Shown: positions 29,536 to 42,299 of the stretch, in pieces
Layout: each line of letters begins with the position of its first letter
Numbering within the stretch: position 1 is the first letter of the stretch
DNA from: Candidatus Falkowbacteria bacterium CG10_big_fil_rev_8_21_14_0_10_37_14
GTDB taxonomy: Bacteria > Patescibacteriota > Patescibacteriia > Patescibacteriales > Patescibacteriaceae
DNA: 42,579 bases
Direction of reading: 5' to 3'
Assembly (NCBI GenBank): GCA_002778705.1
Contig: PFAM01000012.1
Span: 1 to 42,579, forward strand
Made by a program: the position numbers and the translations under genes
Notes under the pieces: generated by a model
Database searches by the model: none
Told to the model about the DNA's origin: nothing
Seen by the model: the letters and a program-made list of their open reading frames with translations, nothing else

Positions 29536-30690
29536 ATGAAAAAATATAAGATATTCTTAGTTGTTGATGGTCGTGCTACCCCTAAGGATGATAATAGAAT
29601 GTGGCTTAAAAATTTATATGAGCCTTTAGTTGCTCTTGGTCATAAAGTTGTGCTATTTGATATAGCTGATTTTGAGAACAAACATGAGGTCTCGTGTATG
29701 TCTCCCGAAGCTAAGGAGTTATTATCTAATGAGTTACCTATTTATTTTGACCAAGCTAATCAAGAGTATGAGTTTGATATTTTTTTGTCATATTTGCACA
29801 CCAAGCAAATACATCCCGATGCCTACGGTCAAATAGCTAAGCAATTGTATACAATAAATTATTCAACAAATTTTCACCAGTTCGATATTTATAAAGATAT
29901 CTCTAAGCACGCTAATTTAAATTTGTTTGCCACTAAGATAGCTAAGGACGGTTATGATAAACTAGGTGTTAAAAGTTATTGGATGCCTTTTGCCGCTAAT
30001 GAGGAATTTTGTGCCAGCTCCGAAGTTAAAAATGATAAAGTCGTGTTTATAGGATCTGCTTATGGCTATAGACCTTATTTGTTTTGGAGAGCGTTACAAC
30101 TAGGTGTAGATTTAAATATTTATGGCGTCGGCTGGTTAAAGGACTTTAAAAGTATCAAAGAAAAGCTGGTCAATAAAAAGGGTTTATTACGGCTTATCGT
30201 TGACTTGCCGAGTATCACCTCTATAAATAGACGTTTGATTAAATTTGATCAGTATAATAGAGAGGCAATTATAAGGAAGATTAATTTAGATTTTCCTGAA
30301 GCGATCAATAATGCCGTTAGTGATGTTGATTATTTTAAAATTATTTCGGAAGCCGCTATTGTGCTGAATATCCAATCAGCTCGCTATAATTTTGATGTAT
30401 TGAATCCGCACGTTCTCTTTGGCACAAACTTAAGAGATTTTGAAATTACAGCTCGAGGATCTTTTTTGTTGTCGCAACACTCTGAAGAGATGGGAGAATT
30501 ATTTAATGTTGGTAGTGAAGTAGTAACTTATCATGATGAATTTGATTTAGCCGAAAAGGCTAAGTACTATTTAAAGCATGGCTCAGAAAGAGAGGAAATT
30601 GCTAAACGTGGTCACGAAAGATGTTTAAGGGATCATACGTGGAAAAAAAGATTTGATGATCTATTTTTTTACATTGATAAATTAGTTTAG
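29536..30690 (+). CDS. CgeB-like glycosyltransferase
   Basis: A 384-residue protein of GT-B type. The N-terminal part (KIFLVVDGRA; LYEPLVALGHKVVLFD) and the C-terminal half (IVLNIQSA; FEITARGSFLLS; LAEKAKYYLKHGSEREEIAKRGHER, given as landmarks) match the CgeB / glycosyltransferase-1-type proteins that add sugars to surface glycans or proteins. The donor cannot be read. It stands first in an AT-rich run of glycan genes. The GAGGG just upstream of the ATG is too close for a normal ribosome-binding site. Confidence 0.8.
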   Translation: MKKYKIFLVVDGRATPKDDNRMWLKNLYEPLVALGHKVVLFDIADFENKHEVSCMSPEAKELLSNELPIYFDQANQEYEFDIFLSYLHTKQIHPDAYGQIAKQLYTINYSTNFHQFDIYKDISKHANLNLFATKIAKDGYDKLGVKSYWMPFAANEEFCASSEVKNDKVVFIGSAYGYRPYLFWRALQLGVDLNIYGVGWLKDFKSIKEKLVNKKGLLRLIVDLPSITSINRRLIKFDQYNREAIIRKINLDFPEAINNAVSDVDYFKIISEAAIVLNIQSARYNFDVLNPHVLFGTNLRDFEITARGSFLLSQHSEEMGELFNVGSEVVTYHDEFDLAEKAKYYLKHGSEREEIAKRGHERCLRDHTWKKRFDDLFFYIDKLV

Positions 30691-30720
30691 TGAAATATTT
30701 TGTATTTAGATATATTTCAC
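30690..30720 (+). terminator. Possible weak terminator or leader hairpin
   Basis: A 9-bp stem GTGAAATAT/ATATTTCAC with a 13-base loop, directly at the stop codon of the CgeB-like gene. It is AT-rich and has no good T run, so it may not terminate. Confidence 0.3.
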
Positions 30721-30792
30721 CTGTTATTTTGCGGATAATTCTATTAATGAATGGTTATAAAGTGTTTGTGAAAGTTCTATTAATAAAAAAAT

Positions 30793-31617
30793 ATGTATTC
30801 TTGCTCTGGTGACCTTGAAAGAAATAATCGTATTTTAGTGTCAGTTATTATACCGACATACAATTCGGCTAAGTATATAAAAAATGCGATTAATTCAGCA
30901 TTGGAGCAGACCACACCTCCTTGTGAAATTGTGGTGATTGATGACGGGTCTGTTGATAACACCGATTACGTTGTGAAGTCTTATGTTGAATCAAAAAAAA
31001 TAATATATATAAAAAAACAAAATGGTGGCGCGGCTTCAGCTAGAAATCTTGGGCTGTTAGTTACTAGAGGTGATTTAATAGCGTTTTTAGATGCTGATGA
31101 TATTTGGGTTAGGGAAAAATTAGAAAAACAAATAAAGTTATTTAAAAATAAAAATGTGGGATTGGTTTATTCTGGAAGATTTTTTTTAGCATCGGAGCGG
31201 TCATTAGATAGTACGCCTTTATTTAGTGGAAAAGTTACAGGATTGTTGATAAAAAATAATTTCATTACTAATTCCAGCGTTGTTGTGTGTAAGGATATTA
31301 TTAGTTTGGCGGGGGTTTTTCGTGAAGAAGATAGGTTTAAAGCTATTGAAGATTATGATCTATGGCTTAGAATCTCTCTTTTGTGTGATATCGCTTATGT
31401 AAACGATGCTTTGGTAGGTTATAGAATTCATGATGAACAAATATCAAATATTAATTATGCAGCCATTGTAAAAAACGTAATAAAGTTTTATTTTTATATG
31501 TTTTTGGATGTAAATTATAGAAATTTTCGTTTTTTGATTTTTGTTAAGATTTTGCAGAATCTTAAAGAATATATTATGAGACTAATAAAATTTAACACCC
31601 CTTATGTTAAAAGATAA
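30793..31617 (+). CDS. Family 2 glycosyltransferase
   Basis: A 274-residue GT-A enzyme. The family opening VSVIIPTYNSAKYIKNAI (from about residue 16) is followed by IVVIDDGSVDNT, the GGAASARNLG motif and the metal-binding FLDADD (98-103), with ED at EDYDLWLR as the likely catalytic base. It transfers a sugar from a nucleotide donor. The gene is strongly AT-rich with long A runs, unlike the flanking housekeeping genes. Its stop overlaps the probable start of the next gene by 14 bases. Confidence 0.88.
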   Translation: MYSCSGDLERNNRILVSVIIPTYNSAKYIKNAINSALEQTTPPCEIVVIDDGSVDNTDYVVKSYVESKKIIYIKKQNGGAASARNLGLLVTRGDLIAFLDADDIWVREKLEKQIKLFKNKNVGLVYSGRFFLASERSLDSTPLFSGKVTGLLIKNNFITNSSVVVCKDIISLAGVFREEDRFKAIEDYDLWLRISLLCDIAYVNDALVGYRIHDEQISNINYAAIVKNVIKFYFYMFLDVNYRNFRFLIFVKILQNLKEYIMRLIKFNTPYVKR

Positions 31618-32286
31618 ATTAAGGTATTTTTTTAATAATAATGATTTGATAAAAAGTCATAGCACTGGTTTATTTGAAGTTGACACTTGGAAACTTTCCT
31701 GGTTTGTTACAAAAAAATATTACCAATTTCAGGTTTTCATCCTTACCCTTTGGACGAATTAATGTTGATGACCGCTTCCGTTGTGTATTTTAAGCCAACT
31801 CATATTTTTGATTGGGGAACGTATGTTGGAAAGTCGGCGAGAATTTTTTATGAAATTGTTAGATTTTATAAATTAAAATCTGAAATTCATTCTATTGATT
31901 TGCCAGATGATATTTTACGTGTTGAAAACCCAGGTAAAAATAGAGGACGGATGGTTAGAGGCAAAAAAAATGTTTTTTTACATCAAGGTGATGGGGTGCA
32001 AAAATCTTTAGAAATACTTAATAATAAAAACGTGGATGCTAGGCCTTTATTTTTCGTTGACGGTGATCATTCTTTTCGGGTTGTCTCTTCAGAGTTGAGT
32101 GTAATTAAAAAATCTTTTCCTAATGCTCCAATTTTAGTTCATGACACTTTTTATCAATTACCGGTCGCGGGCTATAATACGGGACCATATTCAGCTGTTA
32201 AAGAGCTGATTTCTGATGGTTATATAAATATTTCAACTCAGATGGGGTTGCCAGGAATGACCTTGTTGTATAAATTAACTGATTAA
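31604..32286 (+). pseudogene. Methyltransferase-like gene split across two frames at an A7 run (programmed frameshift, slippage or frameshift mutation)
   Basis: ATG 31604 overlaps the previous gene and gives a plausible N-terminus (MLKDKLRYFFNNND, later LFEVDTWKLSWFVTKK) that stops at 31760-31762. The conserved part lies in the -1 frame (ILPISGFHPYPLDELMLM onward) and has no ATG near its beginning. The switch fits the run of seven A at 31711-31717, which in the zero frame is exactly A_AAA_AAA. A -1 shift yields a continuous 227-residue protein. That product looks like a class I SAM-dependent methyltransferase of Methyltransf_24 type: DWGTYVGKSARIF (SAM-binding loop) and FFVDGDHSF with later VHDTFY. 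A TTG-initiated version from 31687 is less convincing. Confidence 0.65.
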
Positions 32287-32288
32287 AA

Positions 32289-33542
32289 ATGAAAATAGCG
32301 CATATTGTTCAAAATTATTATCCATCTGTGGGTGGTATGCAAAGTGTTGTTAAGGAAATTTCTCAACGTCTGGTTGATTTTGGTCATGAAGTAACTGTTT
32401 TAACGTCATTGAATATGGCTAGAAGTAGTAATTATATTAATGGTGTAAAAATTAATAGCTTTAATTTAAAGGGCAATCTTGTTAAGGGTATTGGTGGTTC
32501 CAAGAATGATAAAAACAGATTTATTGATGATATATGTGGAGATTTTGATATTCTGACTATCTTTGCTTCGCAGTACTGGGGAAGTGATATGGCGTTGATG
32601 AATATTGAAAAAATAAAAGCTAAAAAGGTTTTTGTTCCGACTGGTTTTTCCAAGTTAAATGATCCTCTATATCAAAAAAAATATTTTTCTTTAATGCCGG
32701 AATGGTTGAGTAAAATGGATTTAAATATTTTTTTGTCTGTAACTAATCAGGATTATTTGTTTGCCAAAAAATTTAAACTAAACAATAACATTGTTATTCC
32801 CAACGGAGCAAGTGAGTCTGAGTTTAATGGTTTAAAATTGATGGATATGAGACGTGAATTTAATATCACTCCTAATGCTGTGGTTATTTTGCATGTAGGC
32901 GGCCATACTGGTGAAAAGGGGCACAACGAACTTTTTAGGATTTTTGATAAAGCTGAGTTTGGTAGTGATGCGGTGTTAGTTGTTAATGGCAATGATTTTA
33001 ATGATGGATGTAAGATTCAATGTCAAAAGTTTGCTAGCAGAATAAATAAAAGTTTTAAAAACAAAAGAGTTGTTCTGTGTGATTTGCCACGTGAAAAATT
33101 GTTGGCAATGTATCATCAAGCAGATATCTTTTGTTTTCCTAGTAATTTGGAGTGCTCGCCATTGGTTTTGATGGAAGCTATGGCTGCGGGCTTGCCTTTT
33201 TTAAGCTCCGCTTCTGGTAATGCAGAAGAGTTGGTTCGCAATGGTGGCGGAGGTATGATTTTACCAACCCACCCCCGATTATTTGTTAGAAATCAAATCT
33301 CGAATTTTATAAAAATAATAATAAAAAAAATTATTATATTAAACTTAAAGTCTCTGGGTAGTCATGCTAATTATGTATCTGTAGATATTAAAAAGTCTGT
33401 TAAAATATTAAACTATTTCGCCGAAAATTTAGATTTAAGAAGAAAGCTGGGCCTTCAAGGTCGTAGTTATTGGCAGCAATTTTGTACGTGGAATGTTATA
33501 TCTAAGATGTATGAAGAGGCATATTTAAAACTTCTTAAATAG
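32289..33542 (+). CDS. Family 4 glycosyltransferase
   Basis: A 417-residue GT-B enzyme. The N-terminal HIVQNYYPSVGGMQSVVKEIS, the acceptor-domain VFVPTGFS, the donor-domain start VVILHVGGHTGEKGHNELFRIF and the C-terminal ADIFCFPSNLECSPLVLMEAMAAGLPFL (E-x7-E) are all GT4 features; only landmarks are given. Between ILPTHPRLF and VDIKKSVKIL there are some 35 Ile/Lys/Asn-rich residues that GT4 enzymes normally lack. It starts two bases after the split methyltransferase gene. Confidence 0.88.
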   Translation: MKIAHIVQNYYPSVGGMQSVVKEISQRLVDFGHEVTVLTSLNMARSSNYINGVKINSFNLKGNLVKGIGGSKNDKNRFIDDICGDFDILTIFASQYWGSDMALMNIEKIKAKKVFVPTGFSKLNDPLYQKKYFSLMPEWLSKMDLNIFLSVTNQDYLFAKKFKLNNNIVIPNGASESEFNGLKLMDMRREFNITPNAVVILHVGGHTGEKGHNELFRIFDKAEFGSDAVLVVNGNDFNDGCKIQCQKFASRINKSFKNKRVVLCDLPREKLLAMYHQADIFCFPSNLECSPLVLMEAMAAGLPFLSSASGNAEELVRNGGGGMILPTHPRLFVRNQISNFIKIIIKKIIILNLKSLGSHANYVSVDIKKSVKILNYFAENLDLRRKLGLQGRSYWQQFCTWNVISKMYEEAYLKLLK

Positions 33543-33547
33543 CTAAT

Positions 33548-34321
33548 ATGAAAGATTGGCAAAGTTACATTAATTTTCCAATAATAAAGGAAAATTTTAA
33601 TAGACAAAGTAATTGTGGATTGCTAGTTGTAACCATAGCTTTTAATAATCTTAAAACCATTGATTTACAAAATAAATTTTTGAAAAAATATTTAAGTGAT
33701 GATTATGTATATTTAATTGTTGATAATTCAAATAATTCTAGTGTGTCGTCTCGAATTAGGAGTTATTGTAGAGATAATAATATATCTTATCTCAGGCCCT
33801 TTTTTAGATTATATAGAAATGCTAGTAAATCACACGGATCTGCTTTAAATTTTATTTATCGTAGTTTTGTGAAAAAAAGCACATTTAGTTATTTTGGTTT
33901 TATTGATCATGATTTATATCCTGTGAAAAACACAAGCGTTGTTAAATATTTAACGAAGCAGCCTGTTTATGGAGCATTGCAAGAAAGGGCTGAAAAATGG
34001 TACTTGTGGGCAGGTTTTTGTTTTTTTGTTAAAGATTATTTAGATGACAAATTAATTGATTTTTCCCCCCCCCAAGCAGATGTTTTGGATACTGGCGGAA
34101 TGAACTATTACAGCTTATATGTTGGTTTAGATAAGAGTAGTCTAATGTTTCCTAATCATAAATATTTAAAAATTTGTGAAGGGGGTAGCGTTCAAGAATC
34201 TAATGTGGAATTTGCCGATGATTGGTTGCACACATTCAACGCTTCCGGATGGTTAAATTTTACTAATACTACGGAGAGAGAAAAGGCTGTTTCTAAAATA
34301 TTAGATGATTTATTAAAATAA
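33548..34321 (+). CDS. GT-A-like glycosyltransferase with a poly-C tract
   Basis: A 257-residue protein. It has a GT2-like N-terminal fold (LLVVTIAFNNLKTIDLQ; YLIVDNSNNSS), FIDHDLYPV in the place of the DxD metal motif, and a C-terminal DDWLHTF that may hold the catalytic base. No exact family match is recognised. At residues 172-175 the codons TCC CCC CCC are part of nine consecutive C residues (34065-34073), very unusual in this AT-rich sequence. Loss or gain of one C leads to a stop within about 14-25 codons, so the gene could be switched on and off. Five bases follow the GT4 gene. Confidence 0.7.
   Translation: MKDWQSYINFPIIKENFNRQSNCGLLVVTIAFNNLKTIDLQNKFLKKYLSDDYVYLIVDNSNNSSVSSRIRSYCRDNNISYLRPFFRLYRNASKSHGSALNFIYRSFVKKSTFSYFGFIDHDLYPVKNTSVVKYLTKQPVYGALQERAEKWYLWAGFCFFVKDYLDDKLIDFSPPQADVLDTGGMNYYSLYVGLDKSSLMFPNHKYLKICEGGSVQESNVEFADDWLHTFNASGWLNFTNTTEREKAVSKILDDLLK
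34065..34073 (+). repeat. Run of nine C residues (candidate contingency tract)
   Basis: CCCCCCCCC preceded by TTTT inside the glycosyltransferase-like gene at about two thirds of its length. It is by far the longest G or C homopolymer in the window. Confidence 0.95.
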
Positions 34322-34325
34322 TTTT

Positions 34326-34958
34326 ATGCAAAATAATTATAAAGAGATTACTAGCGATAAAATAGTCAGCGATCAATTAATGAAAGGTGCTTATATAAGA
34401 CATGATTTCCCTGGTTTTAAAGATGATTTTGCTGTGATCCACTGTCTTGTAAAAATGTTTACCCCAAAAACAATATTGGAAGTTGGAACTAGCCATGGTT
34501 ATGGGACTAGGGTGTTGTGTGTCGCTTTTGGAGTTAAGCCTTTTTTTTCCTTTTTTAGCCCTGTTTATTCTATTGACGTACCTCCGAAAACCGACCCTGA
34601 TATTATTTATCCTGATCACGAGGATGGTCACCCTAGGCTGACTGGTAAGCATTGTCGTTTCATTTATCGTTATCATCAATTGTATGGTGATTCTAGGTTT
34701 TTTGATTACTCCCCTTATTATCCCTTAGAGGCTTGGTTTATTGACGGCAAGCATGATTATGAATTTTGTACCGCTGATACTTTACAAGCCCTAAAGTCTA
34801 AGCCTAAACTGATTATATGGCATGATATGCAAATTGAAGAGGTGTGTCGAGCTGTGATAGATGGAATGAGTAAGGAGAAGGAAAATTATGTTTTGTATCG
34901 AGTTGTAGATACTAGAATCGGCTTTGCGGTACGTAAAGATGTTTTATGTTTGTTATAA
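34326..34958 (+). CDS. Class I methyltransferase-like protein (Methyltransf_24 type)
   Basis: A 210-residue protein. TILEVGTSHGYGTRVL is a glycine-containing SAM-binding loop; WFIDGKHDYEF and IIWHDMQ match the DG-x-H and HD pattern of Methyltransf_24-type proteins. The gene at 31604-32286 has the same three landmarks, so the two are paralogues or share a family. The substrate is probably a glycan sugar, from context. Its stop overlaps the start of the fucosyltransferase gene by 13 bases. Confidence 0.75.
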   Translation: MQNNYKEITSDKIVSDQLMKGAYIRHDFPGFKDDFAVIHCLVKMFTPKTILEVGTSHGYGTRVLCVAFGVKPFFSFFSPVYSIDVPPKTDPDIIYPDHEDGHPRLTGKHCRFIYRYHQLYGDSRFFDYSPYYPLEAWFIDGKHDYEFCTADTLQALKSKPKLIIWHDMQIEEVCRAVIDGMSKEKENYVLYRVVDTRIGFAVRKDVLCLL

Positions 34959-35833
34959 AACTTAAAGACGGATTAGGTAATCAAATGTTTCAATATGCTT
35001 TAGCTAAAAGCCTGTTTTTAAGTATTGATCAAGGTGTTTTTATGGACATAGCATTTTCTCAATATAAGGAGGATACGAAACGTCAATATGCTCTTGATTG
35101 CTTTTGTGTTGATGATAGAATTAAATTTATAGATGTTTTGAGAATACCTTGGATTTTTAGAGATCCTGCTAGCGATTTGCTAAAGAAAATTTTTATACAA
35201 TTACGTTTAAAGGGGCTGTTTGTTAAGGGGTGGAAATATTGTTTGGAAACTAAGTGCGATAAAGTTTTTAATAGGTTGTCATCAAATCGATTGGTGTATT
35301 TTGATGGTTATTGGCAAAGTGAAAAATATTTTAGCGGCTATCGTCAAGATATTTTGAAGGATTTCACTTTAGTTAAAACATCTAGGGATTTTGATAAAAG
35401 GGCTCATAATATCAAAGGTGATAATTCCGTTAGTATTCATATACGTCGCGGTGATTACTTAACTAATCGGTTCGCTAGTGCTGTGCATCCTTTATGTTCT
35501 TTGGATTATTATTCTCAAGCTATTGAATTAATAAAATCAAAAATTAGCAATCCTAAGTTTTTTGTATTTTCTGATGATCCTGATTGGGTAAAAAATAATT
35601 TACCACTAAACAAAGATGAGTCTGTAATTGTTTCTGGTAGTAATTTAAAAGATTGTGAGGAGTTAATATTGATGTCATACTGTGAACATCAGATTATAGC
35701 CAATAGTACTTTTAGTTGGTGGGGAGCTTGGTTAAATAAAAATGCTGAAAAAATTGTCATCGCCCCTAAGCAGTGGCTCAAGTGTGATGTTCAACCAAAA
35801 GACCTTATTCCTGATAATTGGATACAATTATGA
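34946..35833 (+). CDS. Alpha-1,2-fucosyltransferase (GT11)
   Basis: A 295-residue GT11 enzyme. The N-terminal IKLKDGLGNQMFQYALAKSL, the donor-binding HIRRGDYL (165-172), and the C-terminal NSTFSWWGAWLN are the three conserved GT11 motifs. It moves L-fucose from GDP-L-fucose to galactose-type acceptors. GDP-L-fucose would need gmd (present at 26218) and a GDP-fucose synthase (not in this window). Start ATG 34946 overlaps the previous gene; the stop shares ATGA with the next start. Confidence 0.92.
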   Translation: MFVIKLKDGLGNQMFQYALAKSLFLSIDQGVFMDIAFSQYKEDTKRQYALDCFCVDDRIKFIDVLRIPWIFRDPASDLLKKIFIQLRLKGLFVKGWKYCLETKCDKVFNRLSSNRLVYFDGYWQSEKYFSGYRQDILKDFTLVKTSRDFDKRAHNIKGDNSVSIHIRRGDYLTNRFASAVHPLCSLDYYSQAIELIKSKISNPKFFVFSDDPDWVKNNLPLNKDESVIVSGSNLKDCEELILMSYCEHQIIANSTFSWWGAWLNKNAEKIVIAPKQWLKCDVQPKDLIPDNWIQL

Positions 35834-36693
35834 AAATGCAGTCACCAAAGTTCTCTTTGTTAATGGCTAATTATAACAACGGTTTGTATTTGGATGAAGC
35901 TATTCAATCGGTCTTAAAGCAAACTTTTGTTGATTGGGAACTTTTGATTGTTGATGATCGTAGTAATGACAATTCTGTCGGTATTATCAAAAAATATTTA
36001 CAAGATTCAAGAATTAGACTGTTTCGTAATGTTAAAAATGCTGGCTACACAAACAATTTAATTAAAATGGTTGGTGAAGCTAATGCTGAAATAGTTGGTA
36101 TTATAGATAGTGATGATGTCTTAGACGAGCTTGCTGTGGAGGTGATGTGTGATGTTTATGATCGTAATAAAAATATAGGATTTGCGTGGTCTCAATTTTT
36201 AGTGTGTGATGAAAAAATGAATCATTTGCAAGTGGGTTTTTGTGCGGCCACTTCTAGTGGTAAGTCTAATCTTCATTTTCATCATATGAATCATTTTAAG
36301 ACGTTTAGAAAATCAGCTTATTTTTTAACTAGCGGTTATGATAATGAGATTATTTATGCGGAAGATATTGACCTATGGTTAAAGCTAGAGGAGGTTTCCT
36401 GTGGTTTATTTGTAGATAAATGCCTGTATTATTATAGGATGTTGCCCAACTCACAATCACACGGCAAAAAGAAGAACATATCTGGTCTTTTTGCGAAGGT
36501 AGCGAAATATAATGCGTATGCTAGGAGATTGAATGATCCCTCTGTGCTTGCTCCGAACGTGTCTTTATGTAAAATTTTATGGGAATTATCTAAAGGTTTG
36601 TATTTGTCGATTATTACCTTAAACTGTGAATATTTTATTTGGTTTTTAGGTAAAATTTATTCTATTTTTTTGCAGATGTTTCGTGATAAATAA
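35830..36693 (+). CDS. Family 2 glycosyltransferase
   Basis: A 287-residue GT-A enzyme from ATG 35830, which overlaps the fucosyltransferase stop as ATGA. GT2 motifs are FSLLMANYNNGLYLDEAI, LLIVDDRSNDNS, the metal-binding IIDSDD and EDIDLWLKL as the likely base. The C-terminal 40 residues are hydrophobic (WFLGKIYSIFLQMF) and may attach the enzyme to the membrane. It closes the most AT-rich part of the glycan block. Confidence 0.88.
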   Translation: MKMQSPKFSLLMANYNNGLYLDEAIQSVLKQTFVDWELLIVDDRSNDNSVGIIKKYLQDSRIRLFRNVKNAGYTNNLIKMVGEANAEIVGIIDSDDVLDELAVEVMCDVYDRNKNIGFAWSQFLVCDEKMNHLQVGFCAATSSGKSNLHFHHMNHFKTFRKSAYFLTSGYDNEIIYAEDIDLWLKLEEVSCGLFVDKCLYYYRMLPNSQSHGKKKNISGLFAKVAKYNAYARRLNDPSVLAPNVSLCKILWELSKGLYLSIITLNCEYFIWFLGKIYSIFLQMFRDK

Positions 36694-36698
36694 TTTGT

Positions 36699-37343
36699 AT
36701 GTTTCAAGCGACGATTTGGCCAGAATTTTTCTATAGCATCAATAACTTCACAGCTGGGATGTCTGCTTTGCCGTGGTTGGGAGCTACTTTTATCTTGTGG
36801 ATAATTGTCGCCAAGTCTTTTTGTTATGTACAAAACATCAAGTTTAAAACTATTAGTTTTTTCTGGTTGCCGTTGCTTGCTATTTGGCTGGCCGGTTTTG
36901 CTTTGGCGGATATGACGGCTTACGCTAAAGAGCTAAAAGCCAATCAACAGCTTCTGGTTTATAACTCTTTAGAACGGCAAGATTATCGTGTTTGTGAGGT
37001 GATTTTTGGCGGACCAGAAAAAGCCATGGAAGCTTGTCCGCTTGGAGTCTTATTTGAAAAAATTAAAGATAATGTAGGGCCAGAAGATAAGATTTATATT
37101 GCTTATCCGCCGGAAATCTTTAATTTTTATTTTCGTCTGCGTTTATTGCCTTATTACCAGTTAACCAATAAACCAGAAGAGGCTCAAGCAATTTTGTTTT
37201 TTATGCCTAATCAGCAACTTGATTGTTCTGGCGAAACTAAAGAAAAATTAATTTGCCGAAATAACGATGGAAAAATTTGGGGGACTTTTGATTTGGTAGC
37301 TAATTTTGGTGATGCGGCCGGGCTATTAATTAGGCAAGAATAA
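36699..37343 (+). CDS. Membrane protein of unknown function
   Basis: A 214-residue protein. Two hydrophobic segments (about residues 18-40 and 49-70) are followed by a soluble domain of about 140 residues with Cys pairs (CEVIFGGPEKAMEAC; CSGETKEKLIC) and an aromatic stretch FNFYFRLRLLPYYQL. The repeated short Cys spacing suggests disulphides outside the membrane. I know no family. It begins a different-looking gene set, less AT-rich than its left neighbours, and abuts the GT-C gene with a single base between, so it may be an accessory subunit of that enzyme. Confidence 0.65.
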   Translation: MFQATIWPEFFYSINNFTAGMSALPWLGATFILWIIVAKSFCYVQNIKFKTISFFWLPLLAIWLAGFALADMTAYAKELKANQQLLVYNSLERQDYRVCEVIFGGPEKAMEACPLGVLFEKIKDNVGPEDKIYIAYPPEIFNFYFRLRLLPYYQLTNKPEEAQAILFFMPNQQLDCSGETKEKLICRNNDGKIWGTFDLVANFGDAAGLLIRQE

Positions 37344-37344
37344 T

Positions 37345-38661
37345 ATGTTGAGTATTTTAATTTTTATTGCATTGATGCTGACGAGTGGCTATCCGCTCTT
37401 GCTCAGGCTCTGGCCTGAAAGCGACAAATTGTCGCGCTGGCCTTTAGCTTTTTTGCTCGGATCTTCTTTGATTACTTTAGAATTATTTTTCTGGATATTC
37501 CTTTTCCGCTGGCCTAGTAATTATTGGTTATTGTTATTTTTTATAACGCAAATTATTGTCTTGTGGTGGTGGTTTGATTGCTGGCATTTTAATTGGTGGG
37601 TTTCTATCCAGCAATTAAGCACATCTTTAAAATCTTGGCGCCGGGGAAATATTCTAGTTTATTTTTTAGGTCTTTTATTGTTAGCCCAAATAGTTATAGG
37701 TGCGAGCGTGGCTTGGATGAAGCCGGTGGTGCATTATGATTCTTTAACGATGTGGACATTAAAGCCGGCGTTGTTATTGGCCGACCCGGCTGGATTTTTT
37801 GATGGTTCTAGTCCTCATTTTCAGGGGCTAGCTGGTCAGCCTAATTATCCTTGGCAAATACCATTATCTGTGTGGCTACAAGCCAAAATTAATGGAGAAT
37901 TAGACCCGGCTTATTTGAATTATATTTATTATGCTTATTTTTTAAGCGCTTTAATTTTAATTTATTCAGCTTTGAAAAATCAGGGTCGATTAAAGGCGTT
38001 GATTATAACTAATCTGCTCGCTACCACTCCGTTATTTTTTTATCACAGTTGGAATGCTTATGCTGATTTACCCTTGGCGGTTTACGCCTTAGCTGGCTTA
38101 ATCGCTTGGTTGGCTTATCAAAGAGGGAAAATATCGCCTTGGCCGGCTTTAATATTTTGGGGTTTAGCTTTTTGGGTAAAAAACGAAGGGGCGTTATTTT
38201 TGGCGGTGGCTTTAATAATTTTAGCGGTTCAATTACTACAAAATGGGCAGTGGCGTAAAAAATGGCAATATGCGCTAATGGCCTTGCCTGTGTTAGTGTG
38301 GTTGATTTGGTTGAAATTAACTGGCCTAGGCTTGGCACAAACTTCCGGATCTTTAGGTTGGCACCCTGAGGTGTTAATGGCTTTTTTTAGCGCTTTTTGG
38401 AGCTTTACTTCTTGGAATATTTTATGGTATGTTGCGCCGGTATTTTTATTGCTATACTATAAAGAGATCTGGAGAAATCAAGCTTGGCGACTGGCTTGGT
38501 TATGGTGGGTTGGTGTATTATTAAGCTTTCTAGTTGTTTATCTGTTTACGCCGGCCTATTTGTATGCAGTGGAGTTTACTGCTATTCAGCGCAATATAAT
38601 AATTTTAGTGCCAGTTTTATTTTTGTTAATAGGCTTGGAGGAAGAAAAAAAAGATGAATAA
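37345..38661 (+). CDS. GT-C-type multi-pass membrane protein (putative glycosyltransferase)
   Basis: A 438-residue protein with about ten transmembrane segments and many Trp residues. The first outer loop carries HYDSLTMWTLKPALLL, an acidic motif after the first part of the membrane domain as in PMT/ArnT-like GT-C enzymes, and FWVKNEGALFLAV lies further on. Such enzymes use polyprenyl-phosphate sugars outside the membrane. No close family name can be given. It overlaps the following methyltransferase gene by eight bases. Confidence 0.65.
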   Translation: MLSILIFIALMLTSGYPLLLRLWPESDKLSRWPLAFLLGSSLITLELFFWIFLFRWPSNYWLLLFFITQIIVLWWWFDCWHFNWWVSIQQLSTSLKSWRRGNILVYFLGLLLLAQIVIGASVAWMKPVVHYDSLTMWTLKPALLLADPAGFFDGSSPHFQGLAGQPNYPWQIPLSVWLQAKINGELDPAYLNYIYYAYFLSALILIYSALKNQGRLKALIITNLLATTPLFFYHSWNAYADLPLAVYALAGLIAWLAYQRGKISPWPALIFWGLAFWVKNEGALFLAVALIILAVQLLQNGQWRKKWQYALMALPVLVWLIWLKLTGLGLAQTSGSLGWHPEVLMAFFSAFWSFTSWNILWYVAPVFLLLYYKEIWRNQAWRLAWLWWVGVLLSFLVVYLFTPAYLYAVEFTAIQRNIIILVPVLFLLIGLEEEKKDE

Positions 38662-39256
38662 AAAAAATAATCCAACTCGCGGTTATTATTTGGCGGAAAT
38701 GTTTTTAGCAAAACAACGAGCCAAAATTGCCAGCGTTGCTTTGCTAAAAACTAAAAAACATGAAAAGCTTTTAGATATTGGCTGTGGCTCTTATCCTTAT
38801 TTTTTGGAGCAGAGCTATTTTAAAAGGAGATACGGTCTTGATCCAATGGTGGATTTGTCAGCTAGGCAAGCTACTTTAAATTTGTATAAACAAAGTTTTG
38901 TTGGCAGGTCATTACCTTTTACAGATGATTATTTTGATGCTATATCGTTGCTGGCTGTGGCTGAGCATTTATATGAAGCTGATGATAGGTTGCTATTTAA
39001 AGAAGCGCACAGAGTTTTAAATAATGGTGGGGTTTTTGTGCTAACTACACCAGCGCCTTGGACTGAGGGCTTGTTAAGTTTTTTAGCTAAAATTAATATT
39101 GTCAGTAAGGAGGAGGAAGCGGAGCATAAATCTTTATTGTCAATTAAATTATTAAAAAATATGCTGGTAGATGCTGGCTTTTCTGAAAATCAAATAACAT
39201 CTGGTTATTTTGAGTTAGGAATGAATCAGTGGGTGAGCGCTATTAAAACTATATGA
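38654..39256 (+). CDS. SAM-dependent methyltransferase (Methyltransf_11 type)
   Basis: A 200-residue class I methyltransferase: [12 protein letters not shown] (motif I), GLDPMVDLS (motif II acidic residue), [20 protein letters not shown] (motif IV region) and [15 protein letters not shown] (post-II). The substrate is not evident; small-molecule or lipid-linked glycan methylation is likely from context. The start overlaps the GT-C gene and the stop overlaps the next start as ATGA, so the set is translated in a coupled manner. Confidence 0.87.
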
Positions 39257-39960
39257 AACTAAGCATTGTCATCCCTGTTTATAATGAACAAAAAACTATT
39301 TTAACTGTTGTAAATAGTGTTTTAGAGGTGGGTCTACCAGAAAACTGTGAACGAGAAATAATTATTGTAGACGATTGCTCTTTGGATGGTACTAAAGAAA
39401 TATTAGCTGGTTTGATTGATGATCGTGTCAAAATATTTTATCAAGAAAAAAATGCCGGTAAGGGAGCGGCTATTACCAGGGGTTTTTCTGAAACTTCTGG
39501 GGATATTATTATTATCCAAGACGCTGACTTAGAATATGACCCGACGGACTATGGCAAAATATTGGCACCAATTATGGCTGGCAAAGCTGATGTGGTTTAT
39601 GGCTCGCGTTTTACTGGCGCGGAAGCTCGCCGAGTGCTGTTTTTTTGGCACTCTATCGGCAATATAGCCTTAACAGCTTTTTCTAATCTGTTGACCAATT
39701 TGAATTTAACTGACATGGAAACTTGTTATAAGTGTTTTACTAAAGAAGTCTTAAAAAATATTTTACCAAAACTAAGTGCCCAGAGATTTGGAATTGAACC
39801 GGAATTAACAGCTTTGTTTGCTAAGGGCAAATTTAGAATTTATGAAGTGGGTATCAGCTATAACGGCCGGACATATCAAGAGGGTAAAAAGATAAATTGG
39901 CGGGATGGGGTGGCAGCTTTATGGTACATTGTTCGATCTAATTTGTTTTTCAAAAGGTAA
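39253..39960 (+). CDS. DPM1-like family 2 glycosyltransferase
   Basis: A 235-residue GT2 enzyme of the dolichol-phosphate mannose synthase type. Visible are [44 protein letters not shown], the metal-binding [11 protein letters not shown] and VVYGSRF. It makes a polyprenyl-phosphate sugar on the inner side of the membrane. No membrane segment is present. The GT-C gene that follows three bases later is a natural user of its product. Confidence 0.9.
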
Positions 39961-41438: not shown

Positions 41439-42299
41439 ATGATTCTTTATTTCTTCTGTATCGTGTTTATTTTGGGGGCGGCTATCGGCAGTTTTATTAA
41501 CTGCCTAGTTTGGCGACTGTATCATGGTGAAAGCTTAATGAGTCGTTCGCATTGTCCGAACTGTCTTGAAAAAATTTCTTGGTACGACAATATTCCAGTG
41601 TTAAGCTATATTATCCTGAACGCGAAATGCCGACATTGTCGCAAGCCAATCAGCTCGCAATATTATTGGCTGGAGGTGGTTAGTGGTTTGCTGTTTGTTT
41701 TAGTCTTAGTGTTAAATCTGCAAGGCAAGCCGGCAAATTTAGAACAGATTATTTGGGCGGTTAATTTTGACTGGCACTGGTTTTTAACTTTAATTCGAGA
41801 TTGGGTTTTGGTGTCCACTTTGATGGCTATATTTTTAGGTGATTTGAAATGGTTTGTGGTGTTTGATGTGGTGTGTTTAACCGGCGCCGGAGCCATGATT
41901 ATTTTAAACTTAGCTCTCGGTATGCCGTGGTGGTCGATAGCCTTAGGGGCCCTGGTTGGCGCTGGCATCTTCATTATACAGTCGCTAGCTTCTAAAGGGG
42001 CTTGGGTGGGTGGTGGTGATATCTACATTGGCTTTTTAATGGGGGTGGCTGTCGGCTGGCCTAACATCTTAGTAGCTTTATTTGGTGGATATATTTTGGG
42101 CGCTATTTGGGGCTTAATTTTGGTGGCAAGAGGTAAGAAAAAATTGGACTGGAAAAGAATTTTTAAAAAAGGTGATCCAAGTGATGTGGAGATTGCCGAA
42201 GCGGGCTTGCCATTTGGCACCGTCTTAGCTCTCGGAACTTTTATTGCATTATATTGGGGACAAAACATAATAAGTTGGTACTTGGGTAGAATTTTATAG
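41439..42299 (+). CDS. pilD: Type IV prepilin peptidase
   Basis: A 286-residue aspartic membrane protease with about seven transmembrane segments. The N-terminal [15 protein letters not shown] is followed by two CxxC pairs (Cys39/Cys42 in CPNC, Cys64/Cys67 in CRHC), the zinc-binding domain of bifunctional PilD. Catalytic aspartates are Asp194 in the conserved GGGDIYIG and, in the other loop, Asp135 (LGDLKW) or Asp143. It cleaves the leader of prepilins after Gly and methylates the new N-terminus. It is far (19 kb) from the pilins and adjoins GT-C genes. Confidence 0.93.

Follow-up and report, generated by a model that had tools for sequence, protein, structure and literature searches.

A nine-cytosine tract within a predicted glycosyltransferase gene as a candidate phase-variable site in a Falkowbacteria genome

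Having analyzed a run of nine C residues at positions 34065-34073 (forward strand) of the window, by which we mean the whole 42,579-base stretch of DNA, one contig of a 26-contig draft genome (910 kb, 89.6% complete), we find its best single explanation, and on balance a probable one, to be a slippage-prone on/off site in a gene for a surface-glycan glycosyltransferase, assembled here in the ON state. That the tract actually slips, and that slippage is of selective advantage, we infer from the length of the tract, the missing repair genes and a set of pilin loci in the same genome.

Results

The tract and its gene

An earlier note on this DNA had reported a nine-C run lying in frame within a glycosyltransferase-like gene, and both the run and its frame were confirmed: within an ORF of 257 amino acids (33548-34321, forward strand), the tract is read TCC CCC CCC CAA, encoding Ser-Pro-Pro-Gln. 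The AT-rich setting was likewise as described; the window has a GC content of 35.9% and contains no other C/G run of at least six, the runner-up having a length of five. Among 300 window-sized sequences generated by a second-order Markov model, two had a longest C/G run of nine, and under the codon usage of the window the probability of TCC CCC CCC given Ser-Pro-Pro is 1.5e-4. With nine residues inside an ORF, the tract falls within the PhasomeIt cut-off for C/G tracts (at least nine); a G tract of at least nine is a published phasome cut-off, and nine is also the modal poly-G length in Neisseria (PMC5953494).

Searches of Pfam, NCBIfam and PDB by sequence did not, by themselves, identify the gene, and it was the predicted fold that gave its identity. 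As the Pfam GT2 score (PF00535, 12.8 bits) lies below the gathering cut-off of 23.3, we list the gene under the GT-A fold rather than as a member of Pfam GT2. The best Foldseek matches of the AlphaFold model (pLDDT 87, pTM 0.87) are all GT-A enzymes, among them WrtF (9omh), TarP (6h1j) and SpsA (1qg8), with E-values of about 1e-6 to 1e-5, a probability of 1.00, modest TM-scores of about 0.4 and sequence identities of 12-16%. By its predicted fold, then, the ORF is a GT-A-fold glycosyltransferase, which bears out the naming in the earlier note. It also contains a DXD-like acidic motif following a beta strand (residues 115-120): DHD (D120-H121-D122, 33905-33913), upstream of the tract, is part of the FIDHD sequence (residues 118-122) within a YFGFIDHD stretch that is invariant in 18 aligned sequences.

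A scan of a species-level genome collection yielded 19 homologues (29-42% identity) from Bacteroidota, a Nomurabacteria genome, an archaeon and others. Their alignment runs through the tract: ahead of it stands the invariant FIDHD, and beyond it come DTGG-type residues and the near-invariant W226 and H228; since homologues thus align, with conserved residues on both sides, C9 is the length that makes the full-length protein. The tract itself sits in a region of variable length in the alignment, the two prolines are not conserved, and none of the 19 homologues has a C/G run of at least six at this position. Given the missing tract in all 19 and the improbable choice of codons, C9 is not forced by the protein, and a conserved, CCC-encoded PPQ, which would have spoken against phase variation, was rejected as its cause. 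No close orthologue was found in 12 relatives of the family, and only one of 60 relatives has a match to the gene, a weak one with the tract outside it; missing from nearly all relatives, the gene is probably accessory.

The same-strand neighbors encode, according to Pfam, glycosyltransferases (Glyco_trans_1_2, GT2, Glycos_transf_1, GT11) and methyltransferases (29536-39960, forward strand), so that the genes around the tract likely form a glycan cluster. The product to which the gene contributes would be a cell-surface glycan. A type IV prepilin peptidase (A24) is encoded directly downstream of this cluster, at window positions 41439-42299.

Consequences of tract length

We computed products of 257 residues for C9, 184 for C8 and 195 for C10, so that gain or loss of one C shifts the frame and removes about one third of the protein. 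With one C fewer, nine sense codons lie between the tract and a TGA at 34101-34103; with one C more, 19 full codons follow the tract-ending codon before a TAA at 34132-34134. The earlier note had correctly anticipated the types of stop codon (TGA, TAA) and the removal of the C-terminal third, DDWLHTF region included; its distances of about 14 and 25 codons were too long. Both shortened products lack DTGG (D181-G184, 34088-34099), which lies just past the tract and in which D181, G183 and G184 are invariant, and DDWLH (residues 224-228, 34217-34231), in which W226 and H228 are at least 90% conserved. The truncated enzymes would presumably be inactive.

Long C/G runs in the same genome

Of the 20 C/G runs of at least seven residues in the genome, ten have a length of 7, three of 8 and six of 9, and a single one reaches 10. 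These statistics were obtained from fetched stretches and pattern counts; extrapolation from shorter runs puts the expected numbers at about 7.3 for exactly 7, 1.65 for at least 8 and 0.30 for at least 9, an expectation that carries a mild bias from having been built on stretches chosen for containing runs of at least 7. Runs of 7 match the expectation and long runs are in excess. Seven runs of at least 9 were observed where about 0.3 would be expected (Poisson p about 4e-8; p about 2e-5 when a repeated promoter is counted once). Seven of the ten runs of at least 8 are tied to a pilin-type promoter or to pilin-LamG genes, and the window tract is the only run of this length in the genome that lies inside an intact gene of recognized fold. 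An intergenic C8 occurs at L046. At L043:2527-2535, a G9 is found in what appears to be a C-terminal pilin-LamG remnant (MAQPEITALYNTWVNQ, resembling the end of the L042 pilin), adjoining a surface-like ORF of 805 amino acids.

Tracts in putative pilin-LamG promoters and in a pilin leader

The putative pilin promoters and one pilin leader of this genome are stronger candidate contingency loci than the window tract. A promoter-like element composed of TTTG, C7 to C9, an ATTCAT-like sequence, GTG and a TATAAT-like sequence, with the poly-C preceding an extended -10, has a spacer of 16-19 nucleotides if TTGCCC is taken as the -35. Its copies, with C7-C9 in the spacer (L033:5894-5902, L034:4061-4067, L038:4897-4905, L039:4675-4682, L040:91-98 and L048:4786-4794), hold five of the ten runs of at least 8 in the genome as well as one run of 7. 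Those at L034 and L039 lie upstream of genes for pilins that combine an N-methyl leader with a Laminin_G_3 domain, and at L048 the tail of a pilin-LamG gene is found beyond an N gap. At L038 and L040 the contigs end within the same leader sequence, as would be expected if the assembly broke where pilin genes are repeated. No pilin was found near the L033 copy.

A G9 also occupies the spacer from a TTG-type -35 to an extended -10 upstream of pilin-LamG genes, at L042:5131-5139 in this genome and at L131:2540-2548 in another genus of the same family; the L042 site, whose -35 matches the consensus at three of six positions, was not called by a consensus promoter scan. Across the order, -10 boxes downstream of long tracts show only a weak bump as a general excess, and extended -10 elements were seen solely at the pilin-type sites. 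The L034 pilin-LamG gene has, in addition, a C7 directly after its ATG (L034:4006-4012), so that in the assembled sequence the leader is not in frame; among lengths 5 to 10 the leader opens only at 6 and 9. This gene is either in an OFF-like state or a pseudogene.

Mismatch repair

Neither MutS domain V nor the MutL domain was detected in this genome. A search for MutS domain V in 61 genomes of the order, of which 40 reach a completeness of at least 90%, found it in none, with the control positive in 11 of 14 known genomes. Absence of MutS should raise slippage in homopolymer tracts. This apparent lack favors real instability of the C9 tract and, equally, the neutral growth of such tracts.

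Long tracts across the order

In the 61 genomes we counted 126 runs of at least 9, of which 125 were fetched and classified. Across the order, long C runs are common and many of them are intergenic, so that tract length alone is no proof of selection. We counted a tract as coding if 30 codons or more separated it from both ends of an open frame in which a domain or fold was recognized. The 12 coding tracts lie in the window gene and in genes for an O-antigen ligase (L200), a membrane GT2 (L216), a UDP-sugar dehydrogenase (L264), a D-Ala-D-Ala carboxypeptidase (L279), a T4SS pilin (L220), an Lcl_C protein (L241), a DUF2341 protein (L253), a methyltransferase (L278), a reverse transcriptase (RT; L276), a bAvd protein (L212) and an HTH protein (L210).

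The idea that tracts of at least 9 single out surface genes did not reach significance: surface or envelope genes account for 8 of the 12, versus 7 of 14 among control runs of exactly 7 (p = 0.45). We assigned the surface-related label by our own judgement, liberally for tracts and controls alike, and the controls are few. Domain-bearing ORFs are, however, depleted in runs of at least 9 relative to runs of 7 (12/125 versus 14/46, p = 0.0015), indicating that such runs are usually selected against within genes. Two frameshift candidates, L217 and L256, revealed no convincing broken gene.

Two further kinds of locus were observed. In this genome, a C10 (L049:4939-4948) lies between the genes for a reverse transcriptase and a bAvd-like four-helix protein, and a long C tract occurs at such a junction at L129, L135, L138, L140, L212, L223, L243, L257 and L276 as well; these loci, present in several genomes of the order, resemble diversity-generating retroelements. 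In a relative, a G9 (L280:2093-2101) separates a long LamG-type adhesin frame from a glycine-rich frame in another phase, possibly an adhesin in its OFF state.

Discussion

The suggestion of the earlier note that the tract marks a phase-variable locus is plausible and supported in part: the predicted GT-A fold, the glycan cluster, the frames, the excess of long tracts, the pilin tracts, the failure to detect MutS or MutL and a length at the published cut-off all agree with it, while the enrichment in surface genes is not significant. The small size of the genome is consistent with the episymbiotic CPR bacterium assumed in that note. In the mechanism that we propose, replication slippage, favored by the apparent absence of MutS and MutL, would add or delete a C; the resulting C10 and C8 alleles would yield products of 195 and 184 residues without DTGG and DDWLH, presumably inactive; and part of the population, with the enzyme off, would lack one sugar or glycan branch. 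The window tract would then be one of a few such C/G tracts in this genome, the clearest of which lie in the promoter-like spacers of pilin-LamG genes and in one leader.

The main rival, which we regard as less likely, is neutral drift: in a lineage lacking mismatch repair, slippage would lengthen C runs at any site that tolerates them, and the C9 would be a by-product without adaptive value, lying in a loop encoded by an accessory gene that the cell can do without, even if it mutates often. Such drift would account for the abundance of long runs throughout the order, many of them intergenic, for MutS not being found in any of the 61 genomes, for a probably accessory gene missing from nearly all relatives, for the position of the tract in a region of variable alignment length and for a surface enrichment short of significance. 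Drift fits less well with the depletion of runs of at least 9 from domain-bearing ORFs, and with most long tracts of this genome being placed at precise regulatory positions of pilin genes.

A chance run, in which a fixed Ser-Pro-Pro-Gln happens to be encoded by coincidental codons that mutate at an ordinary rate, seems improbable to us: with about 0.3 runs of at least 9 expected per genome a single one is conceivable, but seven are present, the codon probability is very low, and a pure C9 is unlikely to be stable without mismatch repair. Most improbable is an error of assembly or sequencing in the tract length. Some platforms are prone to homopolymer errors, and the draft from which the window comes is split into 26 contigs; yet C9 keeps a conserved protein in frame, which a random length would do one third of the time, and many independent genomes across the order have long tracts too.

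Beyond the preferred reading of the C9 tract as an on/off site, we tentatively suggest, regarding it as less likely than not, that C/G homopolymers serve as a contingency system throughout an order of small-genome bacteria without MutS, acting at pilin-LamG promoter spacers, a pilin leader, the frames of glycan genes and possibly the RT/Avd junctions. If the on/off reading is correct, a surface-glycan gene, and probably pilins too, would undergo homopolymer phase variation in a lineage for which we found no such report in the literature searched, and bacteria with tiny genomes that are probably host-dependent would have a cheap means of surface variation without mismatch repair.

In the literature searched, homopolymer phase variation in CPR bacteria (Patescibacteria) was not reported. 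The nearest report that we found of repeat-based hypervariation in a CPR genome is that of a Gracilibacterium (BD1-5), which has a hypervariable gene of 9-mer repeats for which its authors suggested slipped-strand mispairing (PMC6851277). Those repeats are nine bases long and in frame, changing both composition and length, whereas the window tract is a candidate homopolymer frame switch.

The closest counterparts of the window tract are the poly-G and poly-C tracts that govern phase variation of glycosyltransferase genes in Neisseria and Campylobacter (LOS, capsule and pilin-glycan genes), which are likewise pure C or G runs inside a glycosyltransferase ORF, and in which, as computed here, a change of one base truncates the product by translational phase variation. 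The present case differs from these systems in that no mismatch repair was found, that members of the gene family elsewhere lack the tract, and that the tract is known from one assembled length. In the opc, porA and fetA genes of Neisseria, phase variation is transcriptional and operates through poly-C or poly-G promoter spacers. The pilin-LamG genes of this genome resemble that arrangement in having a TTG-type -35 set apart from an extended -10 by a spacer of 16-19 nucleotides that includes C7-C9 or G9; the likeness fits the putative pilin promoters and not the window tract, which lies inside an ORF and has its parallel in the translational systems.
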